Source: Flavobacteriales bacterium (GTDB lineage: Bacteria > Bacteroidota > Bacteroidia > Flavobacteriales_D > Crocinitomicaceae). From it: DNA of 64,000 nt. Below are positions 2,814 through 63,772 of the stretch, piece by piece. Both the position numbers and the translations under genes were made by a program. Below the pieces are notes generated by a model. The model saw only the letters and a list, made by a program, of their open reading frames with translations, made no database searches and had not been told where the DNA came from. How positions within the stretch are numbered: the stretch's first letter is position 1; every line of letters starts with the position of its first letter. The stretch is from positions 1 to 64,000 of the forward strand of contig CANMHB010000011.1 of the NCBI GenBank assembly GCA_947497485.1, written 5' to 3'.

Positions 2814-3892
2814 TTTACTTCTTCGTAAAAATACAATTTCATTCCATTTTTAGGATGGGCAATGTTATAAATATCACTTAAAATTAAATGCGGTTGAACA
2901 GCACCGAGTTCCCAATATTTATTCATTTTTGCTGAACTGCAATAAACTTTTCCGGTAACGAAAAATGGCAAAAACTTAGCTTTTGGATTCGTATTTAGAA
3001 TTTCCTTCTTCGTTGAAAATCCAGGATTTAACCAAATTGAAACATCCTTCGAATTCGATATAATTTGCTCTTGCGAAAACGGAATACTTCCTGTCCCCTT
3101 CGAATCCCTATAAATATAATTAAATCCCGCATCTTTAAAGAGCTTCGCATGAAAACTCTGACCTGCTGGAGCATACCAATAATCACCGATGAAATTACCG
3201 GAAATTGCTTTGGAATTTGACTCAACTTCTCCCCTATTTTTAAATTGATTGTATGACTTAACTATTTCCTTAAAAATGGATTTTGCTTCCTTTTGCTTTC
3301 CGGTCAAGTAACCAAATAATAAAACCCATTCTGCGCGTCCTAATGGATGCGTTTCTCGCCAATCAAAATTAGGAACACATGTAATTCCCATTTTTCTCAA
3401 ACGATTTTCATCTTTAAATTTACCGGAAAAAGCACTGTAAATGATTGTATTTGATTTTGAAGCAATGATTCTGTCTATTGACAACTGTGATTCTGAACCA
3501 AGTGAAATCGTTTTTCCTGATTTAATTTGATTTTTAACTTTCTGATTAAAAACCAGTTCTTTATCTGAAACAGCTCGAATTGATTTTTCCTCATCGATAA
3601 CACTCAACATTCCAATATGCGTAGCGGAAAGTGCTGCAATTGCGTTGGTTTCATTTATCAAAAATGAACTTGATTTTTTAGCAAACTCATTTGAAATTAC
3701 AAATGTTCTGAAAATCTTGGATTGGTCCGGGTGAATAATTTGAATTTTAACTTGATTTCCAGCTTCATAAATCCGCAACCATTTGCTGTATTGACAAATA
3801 TTTTTCCCAAAAACCAAATCCTTCGGTTTGTCTTTTGAATTTTGACAGGAAAATAAAATGAAAATCGAGCAAAGAATTGCAACTAATCGCAT
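2810..3892 (-). CDS. ABC transporter substrate-binding lipoprotein
   Basis: A 360-residue periplasmic binding protein of the metal-chelate/cobalamin class. The N-terminus is a lipoprotein signal with the lipobox FSCQ (Cys at about 16). The bilobed family pattern is visible: an IIASKSNTIIYS segment in lobe 1, a long connecting helix with WVLLFGYLTGK, and GQSFHAKLFKDAGFNYIY plus VSIWLNPG in lobe 2. It starts 3 bases after the panB stop, so it is probably co-transcribed with panB although functionally unrelated. If it carries cobalamin it could supply the methylmalonyl-CoA mutase at 23794-27147; that link is inference. Confidence 0.85.
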   Translation of the reverse strand: MRLVAILCSIFILFSCQNSKDKPKDLVFGKNICQYSKWLRIYEAGNQVKIQIIHPDQSKIFRTFVISNEFAKKSSSFLINETNAIAALSATHIGMLSVIDEEKSIRAVSDKELVFNQKVKNQIKSGKTISLGSESQLSIDRIIASKSNTIIYSAFSGKFKDENRLRKMGITCVPNFDWRETHPLGRAEWVLLFGYLTGKQKEAKSIFKEIVKSYNQFKNRGEVESNSKAISGNFIGDYWYAPAGQSFHAKLFKDAGFNYIYRDSKGTGSIPFSQEQIISNSKDVSIWLNPGFSTKKEILNTNPKAKFLPFFVTGKVYCSSAKMNKYWELGAVQPHLILSDIYNIAHPKNGMKLYFYEEVK

Positions 3893-3895
3893 GCA

Positions 3896-4711
3896 TCAAT
3901 ATTGTTCAGATTCATTTGGGAAATCGCCCGATTTAACGTCCTTAATGTATTCTTGGAAAGAATTCATCATCTGTTCATGTAAATTGTTGTATTTGCGTAA
4001 AAAACGAGGACTAAATTCATTGTTAATTCCCAACATGTCGTGAACAACCAAAACCTGACCATCAACCCCATTTCCAGCTCCAATTCCAATTATAGGAATA
4101 GAAACCATTTTCGCTACTTTCTCTGCCAAGGATGCCGGAATTTTCTCTAATACAATTGCAAAACAACCGGCCTCTTCCAATGCCTTAGCATCTTCAATCA
4201 AACGAGTTGCTTCCTCCTCCTCTTTCGCACGAACAACGTAAGTTCCAAACTTATAAATAGATTGTGGTGTTAAACCCAAATGTCCCATCACAGGAATTCC
4301 CGCGGTGAGAATTCGTTTTATTGACTCCAAGATTTCTTGTCCGCCTTCCATTTTAACGGCATGTCCACCCGACTCTTTCATAATGCGAATGGCACTTGAT
4401 AAAGCCTCTTTGGAATTCCCTTGATACGAACCAAATGGCATATCAACAACAATTAACGCTCGATTAATCGCTCTAACAACTGAAGAAGCGTGATAAATCA
4501 TTTGATCCAACGTAATAGGAAGTGTTGTTTCATGTCCAGCCATCACATTTGAAGCAGAATCTCCGACCAAAATCACATCAATTCCAGCGGCATCAATGAT
4601 TCGAGCCATCGAAAAATCATATCCAGTTAGCATGGAAATTTTTTCACCCGCTTGCTTCATTTCCTGAAGTGTATGTGTCGTGACTTTTTTTACGTTTTTA
4701 TGAACTGACAT
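3896..4711 (-). CDS. panB: 3-methyl-2-oxobutanoate hydroxymethyltransferase (PanB)
   Basis: PanB adds a hydroxymethyl group from methylene-tetrahydrofolate to 2-oxoisovalerate, the first step of pantothenate and CoA synthesis. At 271 residues it is of normal length. The metal and substrate residues match the family: D51 in LVGDS, D90 in [10 protein letters not shown]122 in VKMEGG, and the catalytic-type E189 in AIVLEKIP. The HLGLTPQ motif is at about 144-150. It lies 51 bases after purC and 3 bases before the ABC binding protein. Serine hydroxymethyltransferase, which makes its one-carbon donor, is also in the window. Confidence 0.97.
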
Positions 4712-4762
4712 GGTTTGAGTTAAAAGTTTAAATTTGAGAATTTAAGATGTAAAATTATTCGT

Positions 4763-5704
4763 TTATGAATTTATGTAATTTTCTACATTTTTTTGAATGC
4801 GAGCTTGAATATCGGTAGTATCTGATTTTTCGAATTTTTTACCAGTAATTCGTTCATAAAGCTCAATGTATCTCTCAGTGATTGTATTTACAAATTCATC
4901 TGGCATGAATGGCATTTGCTGTCCTTCCAATCCTTGAAATCCATTTTCAATCAACCATTGACGCACGAATTCTTTTGAAAGTTGTTTTTGTGGCTCTCCA
5001 CGCTCCTGACGCTCTTCGTAACCTTCCGCGTAAAAATAGCGCGACGAATCTGGTGTGTGAATTTCATCAATAAGGATAACTTCTCCGTTTCTGATTCCAA
5101 ATTCATATTTAGTATCGACCAATATCAATCCTCGTTCCGCTGCCATTTCTGTTCCTCGTTGAAACAGAGCACGGGTATATTTTTCCATTTGAAGATATAT
5201 GTGCTCTGGAACGACACCCTTGGCTAAAATATCTTCCCTAGAAATGTCTTCATCATGACCTTCCTCTGCTTTTGTTGCCGGTGTAATAATTGGCTCTGGA
5301 AATTTATCATTTTCCTTCATTCCTTCAGGCATTGTAACACCACACAAAATTCTTTTTCCTAACTTATATTCGCGAGCAGCATGTCCTGACATATACCCAC
5401 GAATTACCATTTCAACACGAACGGGTTCACAAGCATAACCCACAGCCACAGAAGGATCTGGTGTCGCAATTAACCAATTTGGAACAATGTCTTTTGTTGC
5501 GTCGAGAAACATGGTCGCCACTTGATTCAAAACTTGACCTTTGAACGGAATTCCTTTCGGTAAAATGTGATCGAAAGCAGAAATGCGATCCGAAGCGACC
5601 ATCACTAAAAGTCCATTTTCCAATGTGTAAACATCTCTTACCTTACCATTGTAAACAGAAACCTGTCCTGGAAAATTAAAAGTAGATGACGTTATTGCTT
5701 TCAT
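4763..5704 (-). CDS. purC: Phosphoribosylaminoimidazole-succinocarboxamide synthase (SAICAR synthase)
   Basis: PurC condenses CAIR with aspartate using ATP in purine synthesis. At 313 residues it belongs to the longer form of the family. Conserved parts are GKVRDVY at about 20-26, [19 protein letters not shown] at about 38-56, and the C-terminal DTKYEFG and [13 protein letters not shown] segments. Its ATG overlaps the phoH stop (ATGA at 5704-5701), so the two are translationally coupled. Confidence 0.97.
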
Positions 5705-18356: not shown

Positions 18357-19283
18357 TTAGACTTTATATCTTCCAGAAGATTTGAGATTGTATTTTTTTC
18401 GCTGACGACCGTAGTCCTTATATGTCAAGTTCCTTGTTACAATTAAATTTACGTGGTAGTAAGCGTCTTTTTGATTCGAGTCACCTCTTTTTTCTCCTGG
18501 TGCGAAAGCAGGATTTCCAGAAGTTGGATTTGATAAGTCTATAGCCATTTGGCTGCCAAGATCTGAGGGGTTAGCATAAATCGTGCTAACGTCATCCACA
18601 TAATCAGAAAAAGTTTTCACGTAAGCCATTTCTAATCCAACACGCCACATTTTGGAAACTCCCATTCTAAAACCTAAACCAACTGGTATCGTCATCGTAA
18701 ATGGACTATAAGCAGTGGCTTGACCTTCTGTCTTGAGAGGACGCAAAGCAACTTTTTCACCCTGATAAACTGTTTTCGGATTGAAATAAAGCATTCCTAC
18801 ACCAGCAAACATATAGTATTGTTGACTTCGGTTTTTTTGAGAGTAATTACCTGGAAGGTTAAAAACCGAACCGAATTTTTCATTTGCGGCAAATATAAAT
18901 TCCAATCTCTGTTGAACCTCAAAGCAAAGACTTTGAAAATTCAAATTACGAGCATATCGAGTAGGTTCCTCTGACCATTTGTCGTCCGCTTTCAATTGAA
19001 AAACACAAAGACTTGTTGTTGTCGCAAAAAATGGATGAAAACGTTGTCTGTATCCCAACCAACCAGCAAGACCGGTGGCTTGTATATCAATATCTTTCAA
19101 ACTGTAATCCCTACCAACACCAACTGATCCTCCCAAATCGCCATTGAATTGAGTAGCACCAAAGCCGATTTGTAGCTCTTTTTTGTGAAGTGACCAGTTT
19201 CGCTGACTATTAAAGTTCGCGTGCTGCGAATAAGCCGTTAAACCGATTAAAATCGAGAAAATAAAGATTAAGTAGTTCTTCAT
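18357..19283 (-). CDS. Outer-membrane beta-barrel protein (DUF6089/PorG-like)
   Basis: A 308-residue exported protein: signal peptide about 1-19 (ending AYSQ), then amphipathic strands of a small barrel. The start of the barrel (LQIGFGATQFNGDLGG) and WLGYRQRFHPFFATTTSL resemble the Bacteroidota DUF6089 group that includes the T9SS component PorG, but it is longer and the assignment to PorG is weak. It ends at a clear terminator and lies 97 bases after the sigma factor and small membrane protein gene pair, so it may be in the same operon or a regulatory target. Confidence 0.72.
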   Translation of the reverse strand: MKNYLIFIFSILIGLTAYSQHANFNSQRNWSLHKKELQIGFGATQFNGDLGGSVGVGRDYSLKDIDIQATGLAGWLGYRQRFHPFFATTTSLCVFQLKADDKWSEEPTRYARNLNFQSLCFEVQQRLEFIFAANEKFGSVFNLPGNYSQKNRSQQYYMFAGVGMLYFNPKTVYQGEKVALRPLKTEGQATAYSPFTMTIPVGLGFRMGVSKMWRVGLEMAYVKTFSDYVDDVSTIYANPSDLGSQMAIDLSNPTSGNPAFAPGEKRGDSNQKDAYYHVNLIVTRNLTYKDYGRQRKKYNLKSSGRYKV

Positions 19284-19380: not shown

Positions 19381-19563
19381 CTAAAATGTTAATAAAATGA
19401 AAGACAAAATACCAGAAAAACCGATAGCCCCATAAAACCAGGGGCTTCTCAGTAGTGATCTAGACAAATTAATCTTTCGCATAATCTCGTCAAAATTCTT
19501 TCGCTTTGAAATTTCTTCATTTGACGGTTCTTTTCGATCGATAATAATTTGAATTTTACTCAT
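19381..19563 (-). CDS. Small single-pass membrane protein coupled to the sigma factor
   Basis: A 60-residue protein with a charged N-terminal half (about 1-40, rich in K, R, E) and one membrane helix at the C-terminus (about 43-60). It starts on ATG inside the last codons of the sigma-factor gene (8-base overlap), so translation is coupled. The arrangement is that of an ECF sigma factor with a membrane partner, but the protein is much shorter than known anti-sigma factors and has no recognised domain. Function is inferred from position only. Confidence 0.65.
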   Translation of the reverse strand: MSKIQIIIDRKEPSNEEISKRKNFDEIMRKINLSRSLLRSPWFYGAIGFSGILSFILLTF

Positions 19564-20134
19564 ATTGCTGTTTATTAAATTTCTTTTTCAATTTAGCTAA
19601 AGCCCTGAAAGTTTTAACCTTAGCATTATTTTCAGTTAACCCTATAATCTCACCGATTTCTCTGAATGAACGTTTTTCAAAAAATCTCATCTCAATTAAC
19701 TGAAGTTCATTTTCCTTCAATAAAGTTAGACTTTTCAGGAGTTTTTCGCGATTTTCTTCAGATCGATCATCACAAATTTCATCTACCATTTGAACAATTG
19801 TTACTGAGTCAATATTTATTGTTCTTCTTGCCTTTTGATCTCTAAATGATTGATACAATTCACTTTTTGCAATTCTAAACAACCAAGAAGAAAAAGGAAC
19901 TCCACGAAACTCAAATTTGTTCAATGCACCCATAGCTTTAACGAATACACATGAAGTAATATCGTATGCCGATTCTTGTTCATCAACCCGTTTATAAATA
20001 TAGCGAAAAATTACTTCATAATATTTATTGTAAAGCGGAGCAAAAAACTGAGGGTTTCTCTTTGCTTTTTCAATAATTGTTAGTTCTTCGCTAAGAACTA
20101 AACTACTCTGGTGATAATTTAAGTTAGTTGCCAT
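19556..20134 (-). CDS. ECF-type RNA polymerase sigma factor
   Basis: A 192-residue sigma-70 family protein with region 2 (about 28-95; FAPLYNKYYEVIFRYIYKRV, the DITSCVFVKAMGAL core and SSWLFRIAKSEL) and region 4 (about 130-185; LKENELQLIEMRFFEKRSFREIGEIIGLTENNAKVKTFRAL). Region 3 is absent, as in ECF factors. It is followed by an overlapping 60-residue membrane protein and, after 97 bases, by an outer-membrane barrel gene. The regulon cannot be told from this window. Confidence 0.92.
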   Translation of the reverse strand: MATNLNYHQSSLVLSEELTIIEKAKRNPQFFAPLYNKYYEVIFRYIYKRVDEQESAYDITSCVFVKAMGALNKFEFRGVPFSSWLFRIAKSELYQSFRDQKARRTINIDSVTIVQMVDEICDDRSEENREKLLKSLTLLKENELQLIEMRFFEKRSFREIGEIIGLTENNAKVKTFRALAKLKKKFNKQQYE

Positions 20135-20317: not shown

Positions 20318-22399
20318 CTAAAACTGAACTCGCAGCTGTATAAGCAAATCAGTCTTTCTTGAACCAACAACCTCTTCAGCGCCGGAACTAATGGAAGAAC
20401 GATTATTGTAAAGAAACAATCCGTAACGCAACCAGAGATCAAAACGCTTAAGGAAAGAATACCTTATTAGAACATAAGATCTACTTCCCTGATAATAGTA
20501 TGCCGGCACCGCAAAAGCATAAAGCGCATTGTTTTCAAATGAATAAATGCGTGTGTCGTAGCTGTCTGTTTCAAACAAGGCATATCGAAATGCGAGATCA
20601 ATAGGAAAGCTTCTAGGTCTAAAAATAAAATCTTGCGTCATCAACAAACCACTCTCTGGAGAATTGCTAGGTCGATTTATCGTAACATACTCAATTCTGC
20701 TCTTCAATGTGAAAAATTCACTTACGGTGTAAGATAAGTTGAAGCGATAGCTCCGTTGAATAACATCCTCTAGATCTTTAACAGTTCCATCAGAATCACG
20801 ACTATTTTTTTGCCGCATTTGTTGCCTAAAACGCGCATAAACCTCAAAAATCTTATTTGGTTTATAAATTGGTTGAATCAAGAATTCATGGCCATAAGAC
20901 GGAGCATCAATCAGGTATTTCATCCAAGGAAACCGAAATAAATCTGCATAACCATTAAGTGACCATTTCGAATTAAATTTCAACTTCAATCCCGCATACA
21001 AACCTTTTTCATTTTGGGTATTACTTCCTTCTGAGAATCCGGCATTATAAAATGTTTGATAATCCCGTGAATAATTTCGGTAGAGAAGTCCAATACTAGC
21101 TCTTGAATCTATTGAAATCATTGCACCATGAACCATAGCTAATCCATTTGAAACATCTGAACTAAGAATTTTTGAAACTTCTCCAAAAAGATTTAAATTC
21201 TTGAACGTATAATTATAGTCACCACTAAAAGATATTCTGTTCTGTCCTCTAAAATCAAATTGATTATAAAAACCTTCTTTTTTATCAAATACCTTATCGT
21301 AGCCCTGATAAACAATAGCCGTTCCTAACTTTAACCCATTAGTTGAATAGCGTAAATTTGCCCCAGAAATCAATTCATTTAATCCGTTCATTTTGGCTAT
21401 TTCAGCATTTGTGCGATGTAAACCCGATAAATCAATGGTTGAAATAAATTCCAAATCTTCGTAAGTTGAATCTGCCAAAACGGCTGCGTCAATTTTCTTT
21501 CTTGAACCAAATAAAGTCAAACCAAAATTTTTATAGGCTAGGTCCATGGCGGCACCTCTTAAAAAACGTGATTCATCAACACTCGTATATGGCCTAATTG
21601 GAATTGCATTTCGTTTTATCGTAGCTATATCAGCTGTTTTTCCAAACGCATAACTAGACCAAAGATTTAATCCTTGACCGATTTGAATTTGATAATCTCC
21701 AAGGACTGCAGATTTTAAATATTTACCTCCTTTAAAAAATGCATGTACAGAATAAAAATCGAATCCTTTTTTTTGAGCTCCTTTGAAAAATTGCTCGCCA
21801 GCATCCTTTTCACATGTATAACCAATGCTAATATTTGTTTTGTAGGTATAACGAAATCGCGTATAATAACGATCACCATTTCCATAATAGTAATTGTTCG
21901 AATTTTTCAAAATTGAATCGGGAACTTCTGCATAACCTGCTTTTTGTTCAATCATTGGTTGAACGCGAAAAAATTGTTCAAATTTCCCCTGCTTTATAGC
22001 TTCCTTAAATGTAATATGTAAATTATCCAATCGATCATCAATTCGGATAAATGGTCGAACGAGTTGAATGGTATTTAAATCCCAATATTCAAGACTTTGT
22101 AATTCATAAATTGAGATAAAATTTCCAAATGCCTTTCTATGCAAAAGCAAATCGTTGATTTGAACATCCGTTAACAAATTTAACTCTTCCAATTCCTGTC
22201 CCTGAGTCGAATTTAGATTAATCGGATTATCATAGTAAAAATTAAGTTGCTCAATAATATTTGTTAGATCCAGGTTTTCAGATTGCAATTGTTCTGAAAT
22301 AAACTCAATACGCTGCTGAATTATTTCACCCTTATCCTGTGCAATTAGGGGTTTAAAATTTAAAAGCAATAAAAGGAATAAAAATCTTTTATGCATCAT
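20318..22399 (-). CDS. Secreted helix-hairpin-helix protein with predicted C-terminal beta-barrel
   Basis: A 693-residue exported protein: signal peptide about 1-20 (ending LIAQ), a ComEA-like double helix-hairpin-helix region at about 50-118 (INLNSTQGQELEEL, then HRKAFGNFISIYEL and NTIQLVRPFI), then about 570 residues of alternating amphipathic strands (frequent Y/F-x-R-Y and ending in LLIQLRVQF), as expected for an outer-membrane barrel. Helix-hairpin-helix domains usually bind DNA. Such fusions are known in Bacteroidota but lack an assigned function. Its ATG overlaps the stop of the PorV/PorQ-like gene (ATGA), making it the last gene of a three-gene operon. Confidence 0.82.
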   Translation of the reverse strand: MMHKRFLFLLLLLNFKPLIAQDKGEIIQQRIEFISEQLQSENLDLTNIIEQLNFYYDNPINLNSTQGQELEELNLLTDVQINDLLLHRKAFGNFISIYELQSLEYWDLNTIQLVRPFIRIDDRLDNLHITFKEAIKQGKFEQFFRVQPMIEQKAGYAEVPDSILKNSNNYYYGNGDRYYTRFRYTYKTNISIGYTCEKDAGEQFFKGAQKKGFDFYSVHAFFKGGKYLKSAVLGDYQIQIGQGLNLWSSYAFGKTADIATIKRNAIPIRPYTSVDESRFLRGAAMDLAYKNFGLTLFGSRKKIDAAVLADSTYEDLEFISTIDLSGLHRTNAEIAKMNGLNELISGANLRYSTNGLKLGTAIVYQGYDKVFDKKEGFYNQFDFRGQNRISFSGDYNYTFKNLNLFGEVSKILSSDVSNGLAMVHGAMISIDSRASIGLLYRNYSRDYQTFYNAGFSEGSNTQNEKGLYAGLKLKFNSKWSLNGYADLFRFPWMKYLIDAPSYGHEFLIQPIYKPNKIFEVYARFRQQMRQKNSRDSDGTVKDLEDVIQRSYRFNLSYTVSEFFTLKSRIEYVTINRPSNSPESGLLMTQDFIFRPRSFPIDLAFRYALFETDSYDTRIYSFENNALYAFAVPAYYYQGSRSYVLIRYSFLKRFDLWLRYGLFLYNNRSSISSGAEEVVGSRKTDLLIQLRVQF

Positions 22400-23208
22400 T
22401 TCATTTGAACTGTGAAACTCAAATTTGGTGACCAGCCTATAATTTGTTGATATGCTGAACCCACATCCAATTTATAAATTCCTTTCCAGTGATAACCAAA
22501 ACCAAATGAAAATTCAATAGGGGCAGTTCCAAAGCCACCTCTGAAATAAACATTTTCCGCTGGTGAATACTCAATTCCTGATTTGAAACGAATTGGATAA
22601 TCTACATTTTTCTCAACTTCACCTAGAAAAATTACTTTATTTGAAACGTGATATCTTGTTCCCAAACGTAATAAACTCGAATATCGATCTTCTTGATAGG
22701 ATGAAAGTTTATTCCTAGTAAGATTTAAAACACTGAATCCAAGATGCCAGTTTTCAGTGATTTTCGCCATAAAACCCACTTCAGCAGTAACTGTTTGATT
22801 ACGACCATAAGCTTCTGGCAATCGAACCAAATGATAATTCATTTGAACACCAACAGATAAGTGATCAGTCAATGCCATTGCATATCCAAATCCAGAACGA
22901 TATGTTCGAAAATTCGTGTAACCAAAAGTCTGACCTCCGACAGAAATAACTCCTCTTTTTAATGGATAGGCTACAACAAATCCTTGTGATTGCAATTCAC
23001 GTAATAAAAAGCGATTTTCATAGGAAACTCCAAAAGCCAATTTTTTAATGCCAGCCAGAGCAGCCGGATTGTGGTGATAGGCCCAAACATCATTGATGGT
23101 TACACTGGCATTACCTAGCGCCATTGATCTGCTTCCCATTGGCTGCCAACCTTGAGCGAAAAACTGGTTAAAAACAGTAAAGAAAAGCAAGGTCTTTATC
23201 CATTTCAT
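22396..23208 (-). CDS. PorV/PorQ-like outer-membrane protein
   Basis: A 270-residue exported protein with a signal peptide (about 1-18, ending FFAQ) and the start GSRSMALGNASVTINDVWAYHHNPAAL that characterises the PorV/PorQ/FadL-like group: a small-residue SMALG turn followed by the NPAAL motif. The remainder is regular beta-strand sequence. It is shorter than typical PorV (about 390 residues). It overlaps both neighbours by ATGA and may form a complex with the helix-hairpin-helix barrel protein. A role in T9SS is possible but not shown. Confidence 0.75.
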   Translation of the reverse strand: MKWIKTLLFFTVFNQFFAQGWQPMGSRSMALGNASVTINDVWAYHHNPAALAGIKKLAFGVSYENRFLLRELQSQGFVVAYPLKRGVISVGGQTFGYTNFRTYRSGFGYAMALTDHLSVGVQMNYHLVRLPEAYGRNQTVTAEVGFMAKITENWHLGFSVLNLTRNKLSSYQEDRYSSLLRLGTRYHVSNKVIFLGEVEKNVDYPIRFKSGIEYSPAENVYFRGGFGTAPIEFSFGFGYHWKGIYKLDVGSAYQQIIGWSPNLSFTVQMK

Positions 23209-23648
23209 AAAAGCAAGCGTTTAAAAGATCCAATTTTTGTGGATTTATAATCCTCTTCTTCTGCAAAATACCAAGTATTTCCATTATCATCGCTCATCGC
23301 AAACAATGAAAATCTCTTTCCAACTGCACCAGCGTATTGATCTTCTTTTTTCAATAATTTTAATTCAACATGAATATTTTCAGAATCACGTGTTATTTTT
23401 CCAATTAATGCATCCGTCCAAAAATACTTTTCCTTTTCGAATTTCTTTTTAAAAGATTCATCGCTAATTGCCTTGTAATACTTTAAAATCTGTGGATGCG
23501 TTGCTGCCACACGAGAAAGTTTAAGATCAGTATTCACAGAATGAAGATATCTTGTTATCGCCATATTCAGCGACTTTTCTTCTGCCGAGTTCAATCCACA
23601 GGAGGTAATGAAAATAAGCAACATAAAAATCCAAATGATTTTTTTCAT
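23205..23648 (-). CDS. Small lipoprotein of unknown function
   Basis: A 147-residue protein with a lipoprotein signal (lipobox ITSCG, Cys at about 17). The mature domain is alpha/beta with a conserved-looking DNGNTWYFAEEEDY segment near the end; no family recognised. First gene of the lipoprotein, PorV/PorQ-like, helix-hairpin-helix operon, with ATGA coupling to the next gene. A -7 box TAAATTTG lies at 23682-23675, 26 bases before the ATG. Confidence 0.72.
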   Translation of the reverse strand: MKKIIWIFMLLIFITSCGLNSAEEKSLNMAITRYLHSVNTDLKLSRVAATHPQILKYYKAISDESFKKKFEKEKYFWTDALIGKITRDSENIHVELKLLKKEDQYAGAVGKRFSLFAMSDDNGNTWYFAEEEDYKSTKIGSFKRLLL

Positions 23649-36400: not shown

Positions 36401-38362
36401 ATGAACAAAAAACTATCTTTCCTTTTCGCAATTTCAATGAGTTTTCAATTGCTTTATTCACAAGAGAATTCTGCACACTGCTCCAAGCGAACAAAGGCTC
36501 ATAATGTTAATTTAAAAAGTAATACGTTATCGATTGCACAGATTGCTCAAACTGAAAAGTATGATGTAAACTATTACAATCTAAATTTAAATATGACGAA
36601 CACATCCACTTATCTTTCTGGAATGGTAAGAATGGATGCGAAGGCAAAGGTTAATTTAGATTCCGCTTTATTCGAACTTTTTCAATCTTTCACGATAACG
36701 GAAATTCGCGTTAATGGAATTCCAGTGAATTATTCAAGGAATCAATCAGCCATCAAAGTCCCTGTCAATGCAACGCAAGGTGTTTATTTTTCCATTGAAA
36801 CAGACTATTTTGGCACTCCTCCAACTGCGGCAACCAATCCTCTCGGTGGCGGTGGAATGACTTATAAAAAATCTCAAACGTGGGGTAATCGAGTTGTTTG
36901 GTCGCTTTCTGAACCATTTTCAGCCTATGAATGGTTTCCAGTTAAACAAAGCCTGAAGGATAAAATTGATAGTTCAGATGTAAGTATAACAGTTCCCGAT
37001 ACATGCAAAGCCGGTTCAAATGGGATTTTAGTTTCCGTTGACACACTTGGTAATGGATTATTGAAATTCAACTGGAAGAATCGTCATATGATTGATTACT
37101 ATTTGATCTCGGTATCTGTTGCGAAATATATCGAACACAACTACTATGTTCAACCAAATGGAAGCACTGATTCTATTTTTGTTCAGAATTTTATTTACAA
37201 CAACCCTCAGACTCTTCCTTATTTCCTGAATGATATAAATGAAACTGGGGATTTCTTGGTGTTATTCTCTGACCTCTATGGTTTATATCCATACGCCGAT
37301 GAAAAATATGGCCACTGCATGGCACCAATTTCCGGTGGAATGGAACATCAAACTATGACAACACAAGGTTTTTTTGAAAAAACATTAACTGCCCATGAAT
37401 TGGCACACCAATGGTGGGGGAACCAGGTAACTTGTGCATCATGGAGTGATATTTGGGTTAATGAAGGTTGGGCGTCTTACAGTGAATATTTAATGCTTGA
37501 AAATCTTTACCCAGCGGAGAAAAATCAGCACATGCTCGATGTTCACAACAATGTAATGAGCCAACCCAACGGAAGTGTTTGGTGCTTGGATAGTTTAAAT
37601 GAAGGTAGAATTTTTAGTGGAAGATTAACATACGATAAAGGAGCTGGAATAATTCATTCAATGCGTAATATTGTCAATGATGATAATTTATTTTTTGAAG
37701 TATTGAATTCTTTTCAAACAAAATATAAGGATAGCGTCGCAACTGGAATTGATTTCAAAAACGAGTTAGAATTACAAACTGGAATTGATTTCGATCCTTT
37801 CTTCGAACAATGGTATTTTGGTGAAGGATATCCAACATATGCATTAAAATGGAACCAGGTTGGAAATGATCTTTTTGTTAAGATAAGTCATATTACTTCT
37901 GCTTCGAATGTAACTCCAACCTTTACGAATCCTTTGGATGTTCGTTTTATACGAGTTGGATTAGGAGATACGATCATTCGATTTAATATCAATTCTAACA
38001 ATGAACTCTTTGTGATAAGTGAAATGGGACAAATTACAAATAGTATTTCAATCGATCCCAACAACTGGGTAATCAATCAAGTAGCTTCGATACTACAAGA
38101 TAATACTCTTGGTTCAATCAATCTTGAAGAAGAATCAAAAATAGAGGTTTACCCCAATCCTACTGATGGAGTTTTTCAAATTTTAAATCTTAATCAAAAT
38201 GCTGAAATTAAAATTTTCAATACAAATGGTCAGTTACTACTTTCAAAAAACATAGCTCCGAACGACTCAATTGATATTCAAGAGTTTTCGATGGGAACCT
38301 ATATTTTGGATATTTCATTTAAAGAAAATAAAAGACGAATAAAGCTGTTAACAATCAAATAA
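36401..38362 (+). CDS. Secreted M1 family metallopeptidase with T9SS sorting domain
   Basis: A 653-residue secreted aminopeptidase-like enzyme. Signal peptide about 1-20; N-terminal beta domain; gluzincin catalytic domain with the zinc motif HELAH at 332-336 and the third ligand glutamate in WVNEGWASYSEY near 355; GGMEHQTM in place of the GAMEN exopeptidase motif near 310-317; and a C-terminal type A sorting domain (last about 75 residues, beginning VYPNPTDGVFQI). It should be exported by T9SS and anchored or released at the cell surface. GGMEH versus GAMEN may alter the amino-terminal specificity. Confidence 0.92.
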   Translation: MNKKLSFLFAISMSFQLLYSQENSAHCSKRTKAHNVNLKSNTLSIAQIAQTEKYDVNYYNLNLNMTNTSTYLSGMVRMDAKAKVNLDSALFELFQSFTITEIRVNGIPVNYSRNQSAIKVPVNATQGVYFSIETDYFGTPPTAATNPLGGGGMTYKKSQTWGNRVVWSLSEPFSAYEWFPVKQSLKDKIDSSDVSITVPDTCKAGSNGILVSVDTLGNGLLKFNWKNRHMIDYYLISVSVAKYIEHNYYVQPNGSTDSIFVQNFIYNNPQTLPYFLNDINETGDFLVLFSDLYGLYPYADEKYGHCMAPISGGMEHQTMTTQGFFEKTLTAHELAHQWWGNQVTCASWSDIWVNEGWASYSEYLMLENLYPAEKNQHMLDVHNNVMSQPNGSVWCLDSLNEGRIFSGRLTYDKGAGIIHSMRNIVNDDNLFFEVLNSFQTKYKDSVATGIDFKNELELQTGIDFDPFFEQWYFGEGYPTYALKWNQVGNDLFVKISHITSASNVTPTFTNPLDVRFIRVGLGDTIIRFNINSNNELFVISEMGQITNSISIDPNNWVINQVASILQDNTLGSINLEEESKIEVYPNPTDGVFQILNLNQNAEIKIFNTNGQLLLSKNIAPNDSIDIQEFSMGTYILDISFKENKRRIKLLTIK

Positions 38363-56109: not shown

Positions 56110-58365
56110 TTAAAACTTGATTACTTTTCCTTCAAAGAAAATTTCACTATTATCATTTATTCGAACTGAATAAACTCCTGACATCCATTCGTTTCCTGAA
56201 ATTGTAAAACTATCAGACGAAATTTCCCCGAAATAAACAATCCTTCCCATCATATCTGAAATAACGAGTTCTTTCCCCGTAATTCCATCTGCATGGAAGG
56301 TCAAATCATTACTAAAAGGAACAGGATAAATTCGAACGGAATTTAATAAGCCTTCATTTATTCCAGACTGACAACTATTGACAGCATTGAAGGTTGGAAT
56401 TCCATATAAAAAAGCAGTTCCTCCATCTGGACAGCGAGCATAAGAAACATCCGTAGTTTGCGGGCCTAAAATGATTTGATCAAAAATAACAGCACCATTG
56501 CTGAAAATGATATTATCTCCGAGCGAGCTTAATTTAAAATTCGTATGTAGACCCGATTGTTCGATGTCATTATCTGCCCAAACAATTAAATGATCATTAG
56601 CATTGATTGCTGTACCAAGAGGAAATGGCCATTTCATTAAATTCAATGGATCGTCTGAAAGGTATAATCCAGATAAATCCAATCCTGTGCTTGTCGTATT
56701 ATATAATTCAATCCAGTCGTCACTTTCATCATTTGAATCATGACCATAATTGCTATTACTTGCTAAAACTTCGTTGATTAATACGTTTCCATTAACAGCG
56801 TAAGGCATAACTACATTAATTGAATGGTATTCATGTTCAGCACGTTGAGGAGAGAAGATCCCTGCATTTGCATTTTCAGCATAAATATAATACTCGAAAT
56901 CCACACCATTTAATGTGACTTGAGCACCGTAAATATGGTCTCCAGCGGCTCCATCGAAATGCGCACCATCATCGTACATTTGAACTCGATTAAACTTCAA
57001 TTGATGATCTAATCGGTAACCTAAATAAACGGTTGATTCGCCTGAACAATTCGCTGTAATATAAATTGAAGATCCATAAGCGGGAGCACTGTTGTTTGAT
57101 GCAAATGAATTTATGGTTGGGGCTACGAGCACATAATTTGAATTCGTATTAAAATAAGTAACTCGAGCGTCCATTAAGGTTTGAATTCCTGGAATTGAAC
57201 TACCGCCGGGACCTCCTCCACTTACGGCCGTAGTCAAGCTACTCTGAAATTGTGAATAAGTATAGAACTTGTATGGATCAGCTTGAACTGATGCATCGAT
57301 TGTTGAACGCAATGAATTTGCCGTTGAAAGATAGGATTGTGTTGCAAAAATTTCTTGAACGATTGTCCGAAGATGAGCCATGTACATTCTCTTGTACATA
57401 GGGTTGGCAAGAATTTTCTTAATTAACGGGTGATTTGCAGAAGTGCTGTTCGACATCGGATCTAAAGTTGCGCTTCCACTTCCTGATCCCGTTCCACCTG
57501 GAAAACCATTAAAACTCATATTTAAATCCCAAATGGTAGGCACAAATCGACTATTGAGATCCCATGTCAAGTAATAATTTTGGCGAAAAGCCCCGCTATA
57601 TGAGTCAAGATTTACAAGAACATTATTAAATGCAAGCATCCAGATTGCACGATCTATATCCAATTTTGATTCGATGTTATTGAAATCATTATTTAATGTA
57701 TTAATCAAATCAACCAAACGATTCCATCCAAATGGTGATTTCAATTCATAACCGTTAAAATAGGAACTGCTATCCATATTTATGTATTTTAAATCTGGAT
57801 TAACGGTCGAACCTGGTCCTGCTCCACCAATCGGATTGCATTTAAAATAAGTTTCGTCAGCTAAAAAATAATGATCTCCATTAAATTTTTCGTCAATGCT
57901 TTCTGCGTTTGAATAAAGTCCTCGAAGTGTGCCATTTATATAAACGTTTGCAAAATTAGCTTTCGGACAATCCATGTATTGTTCTAATATTGCGTAGGAA
58001 AGTACTTCACGTATCATTGAAGGATCTTGATATCCATTTTGAAGTTTAATACTGCGATAGCCTTGATAATCCTGACTCGATTTAATGTAATCTAAATTAA
58101 TGTGAAGGGGATTTTTATTGTTATTTGCATTATATGAACTGTTTCCTTTATACTTTACCCCAACACTATCAAAAGATACCCCATTTATTCGAACTGAATC
58201 AGCAATAACATAAGAATCAGTGGTTGTTGCCGCATCAAGCAAGGCATCCCAAGAGGCAGAAGCAAAGAAAATTTCGATTGTTTGAACTGTTGCGCGATCA
58301 TAAAAGTTTTGTGCTTTGGAAAAAAATACAACAAAAAGTGATGCGAATAAAAATAGTCGTTTCAT
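56110..58365 (-). CDS. Secreted CotH-kinase/lamin-tail protein with T9SS sorting domain
   Basis: A 751-residue exported protein. Signal peptide about 1-19; CotH-type kinase domain about 60-390 (landmarks GVKYKGNSSYN, LRGLYSNAESIDEKF and FVPTIWDLNMSF); a linking beta domain; a lamin-tail domain about 525-660 (INEVLASNSN, DWIELYN, LSDDP and SLGDNIIF); and a C-terminal type A sorting domain (last about 75, starting near IYPVPF). CotH kinases of spore coats phosphorylate secreted proteins; the surface target here is unknown. Monocistronic, with a terminator directly downstream. Confidence 0.92.
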   Translation of the reverse strand: MKRLFLFASLFVVFFSKAQNFYDRATVQTIEIFFASASWDALLDAATTTDSYVIADSVRINGVSFDSVGVKYKGNSSYNANNNKNPLHINLDYIKSSQDYQGYRSIKLQNGYQDPSMIREVLSYAILEQYMDCPKANFANVYINGTLRGLYSNAESIDEKFNGDHYFLADETYFKCNPIGGAGPGSTVNPDLKYINMDSSSYFNGYELKSPFGWNRLVDLINTLNNDFNNIESKLDIDRAIWMLAFNNVLVNLDSYSGAFRQNYYLTWDLNSRFVPTIWDLNMSFNGFPGGTGSGSGSATLDPMSNSTSANHPLIKKILANPMYKRMYMAHLRTIVQEIFATQSYLSTANSLRSTIDASVQADPYKFYTYSQFQSSLTTAVSGGGPGGSSIPGIQTLMDARVTYFNTNSNYVLVAPTINSFASNNSAPAYGSSIYITANCSGESTVYLGYRLDHQLKFNRVQMYDDGAHFDGAAGDHIYGAQVTLNGVDFEYYIYAENANAGIFSPQRAEHEYHSINVVMPYAVNGNVLINEVLASNSNYGHDSNDESDDWIELYNTTSTGLDLSGLYLSDDPLNLMKWPFPLGTAINANDHLIVWADNDIEQSGLHTNFKLSSLGDNIIFSNGAVIFDQIILGPQTTDVSYARCPDGGTAFLYGIPTFNAVNSCQSGINEGLLNSVRIYPVPFSNDLTFHADGITGKELVISDMMGRIVYFGEISSDSFTISGNEWMSGVYSVRINDNSEIFFEGKVIKF

Positions 58366-59686: not shown

Positions 59687-60727
59687 CTATTTTTTTCTCT
59701 TCCAATCTCTAATATTCGTGCTTAGACCAATTGCATGATTTTGCCCGGCCTTAGAATAGATTAGAAAGCCATAATCGATTTTAATTTTCTTGAAATATAC
59801 ACCTACACCAAATGAAAAACCAGCTAAACCAGGACGATTGTATACACGCAGTTGCTGTTGACGATTAAAATCAAAACCTGTTCTGAAATGCAGTGATTTA
59901 GAAGCTATTAATTCTACCTGTAAATTCAGGTGATGGGCTAATTTTTCGATAAAACCAGGAGTTTTCACTTCAATTGTATCACCTGATAGTGCGTCATAAG
60001 TTGGTTTTTGATTCGGATCTTGATAAATAACATCCCACTTATTTAGGTTTTTAGCCAATAATGAAAATCTAAATGGAGCGTGTTTCAATTTATAAGTAAT
60101 TGAAGATTGAATATCAATGGGAAGTTGTGTTTTTGAAGATGACGTATATTGTTTAACTACAAAACCAATGCCTTTGGCAACTATCGCTGCAGAAAACAAT
60201 TGATTTGGATGCTTATAAACAGCTGAAACATTCGTTGAAAAACCAAAAGAAGAATACGTTTCCAAATGTGATCCTAGAAAATTCATCCCAACACCTAGCG
60301 AAATAACAGGATTAAATGATTTTGAATAAAGCATTCCCACAGAATAATCCAAAGAACTAAATTTCCCAAGAACATTACCAACTTCATCTGTCTCAATAAA
60401 ATTCCCGTAATTAACATATTTGATCATCGGAGAAAAAATGCCAATTTTTGATTTAAAAGCATACTGCACAGAACCAAAATTCACACCAGTAGGAAGCAAA
60501 GTTTGATTAATAGCCAGTTGATTACGCATATTATTGTTCAACAAAGCAGGATTTTCTGAACTTAACACAAGGTCATTATCCACGACACTTAATAAATTAT
60601 TACCTGTACCAATGCTCCTTGCTGAATAAAATCCGTTTAATGACTGAAAACCGTTTATTCCCAAATTGTATTGTCCGAAACAATTAAAAACATACAAAAA
60701 GGAGAAAAACAAGAAGTACTTCATCAT
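59687..60727 (-). CDS. porQ: Type IX secretion system protein PorQ
   Basis: A 346-residue outer-membrane beta-barrel of the PorQ family: signal peptide about 1-18 (ending CFGQ), then GFYSARSIGTGNNLLSVVDNDLVLSSENPALLN, which matches the family's small-residue turn and NPALL motif, followed by barrel strands and the late YNRPGLAGFSFGVG. PorQ works in the attachment/release complex of T9SS. It is consistent with T9SS cargo proteins at 36401 and 56110. Confidence 0.85.
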   Translation of the reverse strand: MMKYFLFFSFLYVFNCFGQYNLGINGFQSLNGFYSARSIGTGNNLLSVVDNDLVLSSENPALLNNNMRNQLAINQTLLPTGVNFGSVQYAFKSKIGIFSPMIKYVNYGNFIETDEVGNVLGKFSSLDYSVGMLYSKSFNPVISLGVGMNFLGSHLETYSSFGFSTNVSAVYKHPNQLFSAAIVAKGIGFVVKQYTSSSKTQLPIDIQSSITYKLKHAPFRFSLLAKNLNKWDVIYQDPNQKPTYDALSGDTIEVKTPGFIEKLAHHLNLQVELIASKSLHFRTGFDFNRQQQLRVYNRPGLAGFSFGVGVYFKKIKIDYGFLIYSKAGQNHAIGLSTNIRDWKRKK

Positions 60728-62037: not shown

Positions 62038-62952
62038 TCAAAAGTCGATATGACGATCCTTCTTATCAGGAAATATATCCTCTATCGTTACTAAAATACC
62101 TGTTTCTTCTACATTTCCGAAATCAGGATTCACAGCAGTTCCAAATGTTCGCATTGTCGGAGAAAGATTCATGTAAATATTTACTAGGGGCGGAATAAAC
62201 TCTCCTTTATCACGCACGTGTCCATTTAAAACCTTAAATCCGTCTTTGAAGTCTAATCCATCCAATTGAGATTCCACATATGCCCTGTCATAATTCTGAA
62301 CTAACGGATGATATGGTTTCATCAGATTATCGTTATCAGGAAAATAGTGATGCATGAAATGCAACAAAAAATCTCGGCAATCAGTATTGTAATTTGGGTA
62401 CATGGTTACTTTTCCAAAAAAGTACTTTATTTCTGGATTAAACTTTATTAAAGCTCCAAGTCCATCCCAAATATTATCTAAAGCAAAAAGGCCTTTCCTT
62501 GGGTTAACACTTGGCTGATAATTTGGTTGTACCCAACTTCGACCAAGCTCAATAGTAAAAGGCAAATAATCTTTAACAAATTGTTCAGAAAAGTCAAAAT
62601 AATGCATGGTTGAAAGATGGATATTTCCATTTTCGGTCATCGCATCCTTACATTTAATAAAGCGATAACCACCAATGATTTCCTCGTCTTCAGGGGACCA
62701 AAGAACAAGCTGTTTGTAGCAATTGTCATTTGTGTCATATTCATCTAGATCAATTGATTCGCCTGTTCCACCACCAGAAGCTCTAAAAGTAACCTCCCTT
62801 AATCTTCCAACTTCCAGAACAACGTTTGGAGCGTTCCAATTATCGATTATATAAATTTCGTTTTCGCCTTTTCTTGTATACCTTACAAATTTGTCTTTGG
62901 ATAATTCTTTTTTAATTACCACTTTATCGATTGGATCAATGATTTTTTGCAT
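62038..62952 (-). CDS. GNAT-type N-acyltransferase (GlsB/OlsB-like)
   Basis: A 304-residue hemolysin-related N-acyltransferase. Conserved segments are LEVGRLREVTFRASGGGTGES near 46-66, IIGGYRFIKC near 92-101, and FTIELGRSWVQPNYQPSVNPRKGLFALDNIWDGLGAL near 130-170. Such enzymes transfer a 3-hydroxyacyl chain to the amino group of ornithine or glycine. It overlaps the upstream PlsC-like gene by 17 bases; the pair matches the GlsB/GlsA arrangement for glycine lipids in Bacteroides. Confidence 0.85.
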   Translation of the reverse strand: MQKIIDPIDKVVIKKELSKDKFVRYTRKGENEIYIIDNWNAPNVVLEVGRLREVTFRASGGGTGESIDLDEYDTNDNCYKQLVLWSPEDEEIIGGYRFIKCKDAMTENGNIHLSTMHYFDFSEQFVKDYLPFTIELGRSWVQPNYQPSVNPRKGLFALDNIWDGLGALIKFNPEIKYFFGKVTMYPNYNTDCRDFLLHFMHHYFPDNDNLMKPYHPLVQNYDRAYVESQLDGLDFKDGFKVLNGHVRDKGEFIPPLVNIYMNLSPTMRTFGTAVNPDFGNVEETGILVTIEDIFPDKKDRHIDF

Positions 62953-63772
62953 ATTCGTTGTATGTTAACTTATGAACAATTTGTCTTACCTTTTGTGCTG
63001 CCTGATAATCATTTAACTCCTCGTCTATTTCAGAAAACCTTATTGGATTTCCAACAGTTATTTCAATCACTTTATTTCTTTGTTTAAATAGCTCGTCAGA
63101 CAACCATAACATTTCAATATTCGCTTTAATTCCAATAAATTTTCTAAATTTTGCAATCCTATAGAAAAAAGGACTTAATTCTCCTTTGATGTGAATTGGA
63201 ATTATTACGCGATCAAATTCTCTAGCATAGGTTACAAAAGTTTTTTTCCATTCTAGATCTTGGACCCTACCATCTATTTTACGACTTACCAAACCAGCAG
63301 GAAAAATACAAATCGCATTTTCCGACATAAAGGCATTTTTTATTTGCTGCCTTACTGAAACATCATTTTTTCCATGTTTATTAACTCCTATGAACAGTCC
63401 TTTTAAATTTTTCAAATTCATTAAAAGATCATTAACAATAAATTTCATATCATTACGATGGTGACGAAGGGCAACAATTAATCCAATTGCATCCATTCCA
63501 CCAAGAGGATGATTCATTGCCAGAATGACCGGACCTTCCTTCGGAATATTTTCAATGCCTTTGATTTTTAATTCAATATTGAAATAATTGATAATCGCTT
63601 CACAGAAGTCGGCATCAAAATAGTTTTCGTGTTCTATCAAAAAGTTATTGATCTCATCTTCATGCAAAATCCTTCTTAAATAAGAGATTACAAAGCCAGG
63701 TAACCAACGTAATAATTTCGGGTTTTTACTAGCAATTAAACCTTTTATATCAATAAACTTTTCTTTGCTCAC
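62936..63772 (-). CDS. PlsC-type O-acyltransferase (GlsA/OlsA-like)
   Basis: A 278-residue acyltransferase: NHPLGGMDAIG (H88 to D94, an H-x5-D form of the usual H-x4-D motif) and IFPAGLVSRK for acceptor binding. This H-x5-D form is typical of the aminolipid group. The enzyme should add the second acyl chain to the hydroxyl of the product of the downstream N-acyltransferase. Start is GTG 63772, only 4 bases after a perfect -7 box, so translation is probably leaderless. Confidence 0.85.
   Translation of the reverse strand: MSKEKFIDIKGLIASKNPKLLRWLPGFVISYLRRILHEDEINNFLIEHENYFDADFCEAIINYFNIELKIKGIENIPKEGPVILAMNHPLGGMDAIGLIVALRHHRNDMKFIVNDLLMNLKNLKGLFIGVNKHGKNDVSVRQQIKNAFMSENAICIFPAGLVSRKIDGRVQDLEWKKTFVTYAREFDRVIIPIHIKGELSPFFYRIAKFRKFIGIKANIEMLWLSDELFKQRNKVIEITVGNPIRFSEIDEELNDYQAAQKVRQIVHKLTYNEYAKNH

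Follow-up and report, generated by a model that had tools for sequence, protein, structure and literature searches.

A conserved pair of predicted outer-membrane barrels in Bacteroidota, one carrying a ComEA-type helix-hairpin-helix domain

Why would a helix-hairpin-helix (HhH) domain of the kind found in the DNA-uptake protein ComEA stand in front of a predicted outer-membrane β-barrel? The question is raised by three overlapping open reading frames (ORFs), here called P1, P2 and P3, in a 64,000-nucleotide stretch of contig CANMHB010000011.1 (assembly GCA_947497485.1) of a Flavobacteriales bacterium; this whole stretch is referred to below as the window. An original prediction, made from the letters of the window, had described the ORFs as an envelope operon joined by ATGA overlaps. 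The three ORFs and both overlaps are present (Table 1), and the signal peptides of P1 and P2 and the lipobox ITSC of P3, all recognized by eye, agree with an envelope location. P1 occurs once in its own genome. We find that the conserved unit is the pair P2-P1, not the trio, and we give roughly even odds (about 0.5) to the reading that the pair forms a two-barrel outer-membrane complex in which the HhH serves as a periplasmic docking domain.

The linkage of P2 to P1 is far beyond chance. Where a locus leaves 700 bases or more of room, 94 of 103 have P2 directly upstream of P1; this count includes the window's own locus (L152) and one genome twice (L151 and L132). The arrangement is found in 72/73 loci of the best-hit set (L071-L150) and in 22/30 of the phylum-wide set (L151-L180). 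Over 121 loci drawn from relatives and best hits, P2 is a neighbor in 103; the next commonest neighbor occurs in 34 and reflects local synteny. At the genome level, P2 orthologues (E ≤ 1e-30) were detected in 27 of 40 P1-positive and 0 of 40 P1-negative genomes (Fisher, 1.6e-11), the 80 genomes being a hand-picked set of 40 strong P1 positives and 40 of the 96 P1-negatives, which also served for the counts of SprA, of the ComEA-like protein and of the first DUF5689 batch given below. Distances among P1 and P2 sequences are also correlated (r = 0.90, 140 loci), as species history alone could make them, and in at least four genomes (G064, G070, G121, G136) P2 is present away from P1. One genome counted as P1-negative (G077) holds a 574-residue HhH protein beside a P2-like ORF (L249:2033-3757 and 3761-4978). 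These two genes are probably a very diverged P1-P2 pair, so negatives outside the window's class may be false.

P3, on the other hand, was rejected as a core part, as it is found in 15 of the 121 loci. The three-gene linkage was seen only in close relatives, both in the phmmer list and in those loci. As a unit, the trio of the original prediction is thus reduced to its P2-P1 half.

P1 itself is an old family. It was matched in 57/60 relatives, including all 42 good genomes among them, and a 21-row profile found it at E ≤ 1e-5 in 296/392 genomes across the phylum (293/389 good ones), some of these matches being weak, down to 9.4e-6. The region following the HhH is predicted to be a β-barrel from the signal peptide, the length, an alternating pattern and the C-terminal F. 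A rough strand estimate, which is no substitute for a structure prediction, flags stretches of the helical HhH region as well. The charged barrel positions E202, E276, E407, R441 and E464 are invariant in 36 diverse members (36/36), all of which, apart from the window's own P1, are 21-35% identical to it. In the window's own genus, a subset of loci (L058-L067) encodes P1 proteins with no more than some 24-34% identity across the matched region, with an upstream partner of 255-264 residues that the P2 blast search missed and the same sigma factor downstream.

Searches with the large barrel returned little beyond its N-terminal domain. The Pfam and NCBIfam models matched by several of the 36 members are of the HhH type, and no curated family was found for the large barrel beyond these. 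No transporter or porin family was matched consistently in either collection (OmpW was touched by 1/36 members, E = 0.0094), and a radical-SAM NCBIfam model touches 5/36 at E ≥ 0.02. Family searches gave no match of P1 to a BamA or SprA model, and the P1 sequence alone had none among sequences of solved structures. A phage origin was rejected, as tblastn against 50,697 phage records gave no match.

For the HhH domain, the sequence of the window's P1 taken alone stays below threshold with Pfam HHH_3 (15 bits, cut-off 27, E = 0.027) and likewise with the ComEA models. Across the 36 diverse members, HHH_3 matches 27 at E ≤ 1, the best at 1.5e-16; nine have no match at that level, and three of these were checked separately. 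The family profile aligned without gaps, over about 60 residues, to solved ComEA chains (8dss, E = 1.3e-10; 8dfk, E = 6.7e-10). The matches of family members to HHH_3 and of the family profile to ComEA chains settle the matter, and we regard the ComEA-type (HhH)2 fold, as originally proposed, as real.

The same comparison argues against DNA binding. HhH domains have their DNA-contacting signature, GxG, in the hairpin. Such domains typically contact DNA through backbone nitrogens, and in Bacillus subtilis ComEA exchange of the key lysine (K164A) lowers transformation more than 100-fold (PMC9747964). In the P1 family, neither hairpin has GxG in any of the 162 rows ungapped there, and the full set of 179 has none either. 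The 162 rows are a fair base, since the 179 (172 distinct, with L031-L070 and L071-L150 partly from the same genomes) include fragments (L047, L098, L102), HhH-less members and N-terminally diverged members. Of the 179 rows, 171 have S, T, N or D at the third hairpin position, and one member (L044) has GLG three residues ahead of the first hairpin, out of register. ComEA-like controls have G[IL]G in the middle motif in 10/11 cases. At the K164 column, P1 position 80, the family has Q in 136 rows (Q80 in the window), R in 1 and K in 0 of 179; this column is not discriminating, as the phylum's ComEA-like proteins also lack lysine there. The net charge of the P1 HhH is -6 in the window and averages -3.2 over 175 rows; that of ten ComEA-like segments ranges from -3 to +5 and is mostly near zero. 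Three P1 members with no HhH match (L195, L201, L209) still have P2 adjacent. With GxG missing, a net negative charge and HhH-less members that keep P2, binding of DNA by this domain appears unlikely from its sequence, and we do not uphold its original designation as DNA-binding. In the solved relative 9yi2, the best hit of the P1 family profile, the first hairpins of the aligned stretches also lack the second glycine.

P2 scores 62.8 bits (E = 4e-17) against the PorV/PorQ family NF033709 (PorV_fam), whose curated cut-off of 90 it does not reach, and all 16 P2 members scanned match this family at E ≤ 0.001, which bears out the predicted PorV/PorQ-like partner at family level. The cut-offs of more specific models are unmet: 19.8 of 220 bits for PorQ, 12.5 of 250 for PorV and 24.5 of 250 for BamG; on this last score, membership in the β-barrel assembly machinery (BAM) was rejected. 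The window has its own PorQ of the type IX secretion system (59687-60727, minus strand; 271 bits, above the cut-off of 220), and P2 is therefore a separate paralogue.

Table 1. Positions of the P1-P2-P3 locus, its neighbors and related HhH proteins (window coordinates unless a locus is named)
Feature	Position	Strand	Description
P1	20318-22399	-	ORF, 693 aa; secreted; N-terminal (HhH)2 domain and predicted outer-membrane β-barrel
HhH domain of P1 (residues 58-119)	22043-22228	-	HHH_3 match; matches solved ComEA chains by profile; without GxG hairpins
Predicted barrel of P1 (about residues 140-693)	20318-21982	-	36-member alignment; predicted barrel
P2	22396-23208	-	ORF, 270 aa; PorV/PorQ/FadL-like predicted barrel; partner of P1
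P3	23205-23648	-	ORF, 147 aa; lipoprotein; accessory, close relatives only
P2/P1 stop-start overlap ATGA	22396-22399	-	4 nt; TCAT on the plus strand
P3/P2 stop-start overlap ATGA	23205-23208	-	4 nt; TCAT on the plus strand
ECF (extracytoplasmic function) sigma factor	19556-20134	-	downstream of P1
PorG-like gene	18357-19283		78.9 bits, cut-off 130; downstream of P1
ComEA-like protein, 291 aa	L181:7079-7954		another contig; three HHH_3 stretches, the middle one with GIG
HhH-bearing P2 homologues	L246:3824-4939; L247:3827-4978; L248:4063-5277		unlinked to P1

What, then, could the pair do? In the reading that we favor, the large barrel P1 would be accompanied in the outer membrane by the small FadL/PorV-type barrel P2. 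The (HhH)2 domain of P1 would lie on the periplasmic side, most likely as a docking or plug domain, the part played by related HhH folds in PsbU and GspK, and not as a DNA clamp, while the conserved charged residues of the barrel would point to a specific substrate or client rather than to a general pore. We propose a two-barrel complex by analogy with BamA-BamG, in which a FadL-type barrel is bound to the large one, and beside the P2-P1 linkage and co-occurrence described above; physical contact between P1 and P2, the barrel topology, the periplasmic side and the docking role are predicted.

Several observations weigh against this reading. No P2 was found at E ≤ 1e-30 in 13/40 P1-positive genomes. 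Among 30 distant loci, P2 adjoins P1 in 15 (in one at 35 bits and in one 297 bases off) and is not adjacent in the other 15, so P2 is not obligatory. A profile match of P1 against P2 reached only 23% probability, and common descent of the two barrels is not supported. In three genomes of three families, P2 homologues carry a C-terminal HhH (HHH_3, 57-63 bits; Table 1), also without GxG by eye; fusion of the domain to P2 indicates that it is more than mere decoration. Finally, the barrel of P1 and its contact with P2 are unproven predictions.

Alternative roles were weighed against the same data. The likeness of P2 to PorV and PorQ, together with the PorQ and sub-cut-off PorG-like genes of the window, would suit an accessory of the type IX secretion system, a role that we consider very improbable. 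SprA is encoded in all 40 P1-negative and in 34/40 P1-positive genomes, six P1-positives lacking it, and P2 falls below the PorV and PorQ equivalog cut-offs; P1-P2 is independent of SprA, and a part in type IX secretion was rejected on these counts. It is unlikely that the pair moves small or hydrophobic compounds, lipids or glycans through the outer membrane, P2 working as a FadL-like transporter and the HhH as plug. The FadL/PorV grouping of P2 and the conserved charged positions in the P1 barrel would accord with it, but P1 has no consistent transporter or porin match, and within the 121 loci, which represent relatives and best hits and not the whole phylum, local synteny accounts for any repeated metabolic neighbor. 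A Wzi-like capsule barrel was rejected after hhalign gave 0.5% against a profile of 10 Wzi-type proteins.

Uptake of DNA calls for a closer look, for the original prediction had suggested the handling of extracellular DNA. In Riemerella anatipestifer, a predicted barrel and a DUF5689 protein (RA0C_RS04915/RS04920; DUF5689 membership of the latter is the published annotation) are needed for transformation, and RA0C_RS02645, with three HhH domains and a predicted periplasmic location, is essential for it (PMC8459023). In many Bacteroidota, P1-P2 might be a counterpart of the former as an outer-membrane DNA-uptake module, with the HhH receiving DNA or docking a ComEA-like protein on the periplasmic side. 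The window's genome does encode such a protein, with three HhH stretches and an N-terminal membrane segment seen by eye; it resembles RA0C_RS02645 in layout. The P1 HhH is homologous by profile to its third, GIG-less HhH (97.3% probability). The ComEA-like profile was found at E ≤ 1e-30 in 45/45 genomes of the class tested, 25 of them P1-negative and 20 P1-positive. Outside the class, 34/35 genomes gave only short, weaker matches, the best at 2.7e-17, and G224 gave none. The HhH-bearing P2 homologues would also fit such a module.

The distribution of DUF5689 adds a lead, not proof. Within the class, strong matches (E ≤ 1e-30) occur in 54/58 P1-negative versus 8/37 P1-positive genomes (combined Fisher, 4e-13), a near-complementary spread. 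The second batch (31/33 versus 3/17) repeats the first (23/25 versus 5/20), although the threshold was fixed after the first results were known. Between them the batches take in every one of the 96 P1-negatives, 58 of which belong to the class, and each of the 37 class genomes with strong P1; seven class genomes with weak P1 are left out of the counts, and three of them have strong DUF5689. The imbalance is also seen by genus (20/23 versus 6/26 in a hand tally; p 1e-5) and within family f15 (5/6 versus 1/7; p 0.03). A single family, f17, which may be Flavobacteriaceae-like, dominates the P1-negatives, introducing taxonomic confounding, and P1 and DUF5689 occur side by side in some genomes of families f18 and f22. 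In four of six loci inspected, the DUF5689 gene follows immediately on a long ORF that looks to us like part of a barrel; in L245 the two are separated by a lipoprotein, and L242 has no long ORF. The sole such neighbor that was scanned (L241:3-1361) reached the cut-off of no family. P1, P2 and P3 themselves do not match DUF5689, and in the window's own genome this family is matched once, in part (50.7 bits), on a different contig.

Against a role in uptake stand the missing GxG hairpins, the net negative charge and the HhH-less members, and also the eight class genomes with both P1 and DUF5689, the confounding by family and the late choice of threshold. Outside the class there is no complementarity, with strong DUF5689 in 0/58 genomes tested whatever their P1 status, and the ComEA-like matches there are short and weak. 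By eye, no competence gene was recognized among the 28 recurring neighbor clusters listed. We therefore hold uptake to be rather unlikely, and the handling of extracellular DNA survives as a minority reading, kept alive by the P2-HhH fusions and the DUF5689 pattern while the HhH lacks the signs of DNA contact. More speculative, and improbable as a whole, is a scenario in which P1-P2 was the ancestral Bacteroidota gate for transforming DNA, working without secretin or type IV pilus, handing DNA to the three-HhH protein or docking it through the HhH, and later replaced by the DUF5689 module in Flavobacteriaceae-like lineages.

Around the operon, 34 of the 121 loci retain the ECF sigma factor downstream of P1 in the same orientation; it may regulate the P1 operon, or its position may be mere synteny. 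Elsewhere in the window, type IX sorting tails were seen on two proteins (36401-38362, plus strand; 56110-58365, minus strand), one of them aminopeptidase-like. GlsB, a glycine N-acyltransferase, lies at 62038-62952 on the minus strand (481 bits), and the ORF next upstream of it (62936-63772) is acyltransferase-like by eye.

No function assigned to this combination was found, in keeping with the original prediction, and full-text searches of open-access papers listed no study that we recognized as dealing with the barrel pair. A table on iron in one paper includes BT3167, a helix-hairpin-helix protein (PMC10434189), and another paper mentions HhH solely in the legend to a figure on a kinase protein (PMC3861447).

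To our knowledge, the mechanism by which DNA passes the Bacteroidota outer membrane is open. A barrel pair that spans much of the phylum and shares a fold with a DNA-uptake protein marks a gap in outer-membrane biology. Should its cargo not be DNA, P1-P2 would still be a candidate for a two-barrel complex that is as yet undescribed, next to BAM and type IX secretion.

Known systems offer partial parallels. The HhH domains of PsbU and GspK are used for protein contact, and the P1-family HhH matches both weakly; unlike P1, neither PsbU nor GspK has a barrel. PorV accompanies SprA, and P2 is proposed to accompany P1 in a similar manner, as a small FadL-type barrel beside a larger outer-membrane machine. 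The other example of this kind is BamG, a FadL homologue bound to BamA (PMC12611786, PMC12578637). P2, however, stays below the cut-offs of both the BamG and PorV models, and P1 matches neither BamA nor SprA. RA0C_RS02645 and RA0C_RS04915/RS04920 likewise combine an HhH protein with an outer-membrane barrel, proposed there for the passage of DNA (PMC8459023), but include a DUF5689 protein that has no equivalent among P1-P3. With ComEA (ComE operon protein 1; 8dfk, 8dss), P1 shares the (HhH)2 fold and differs in lacking GxG in both hairpins, in carrying Q80 where the critical lysine would stand and in the predicted barrel that follows the domain. The new aspect of P1-P2 is thus the reuse of a ComEA-type fold within a pairing of known kind, that of a FadL-type partner barrel with a large barrel.

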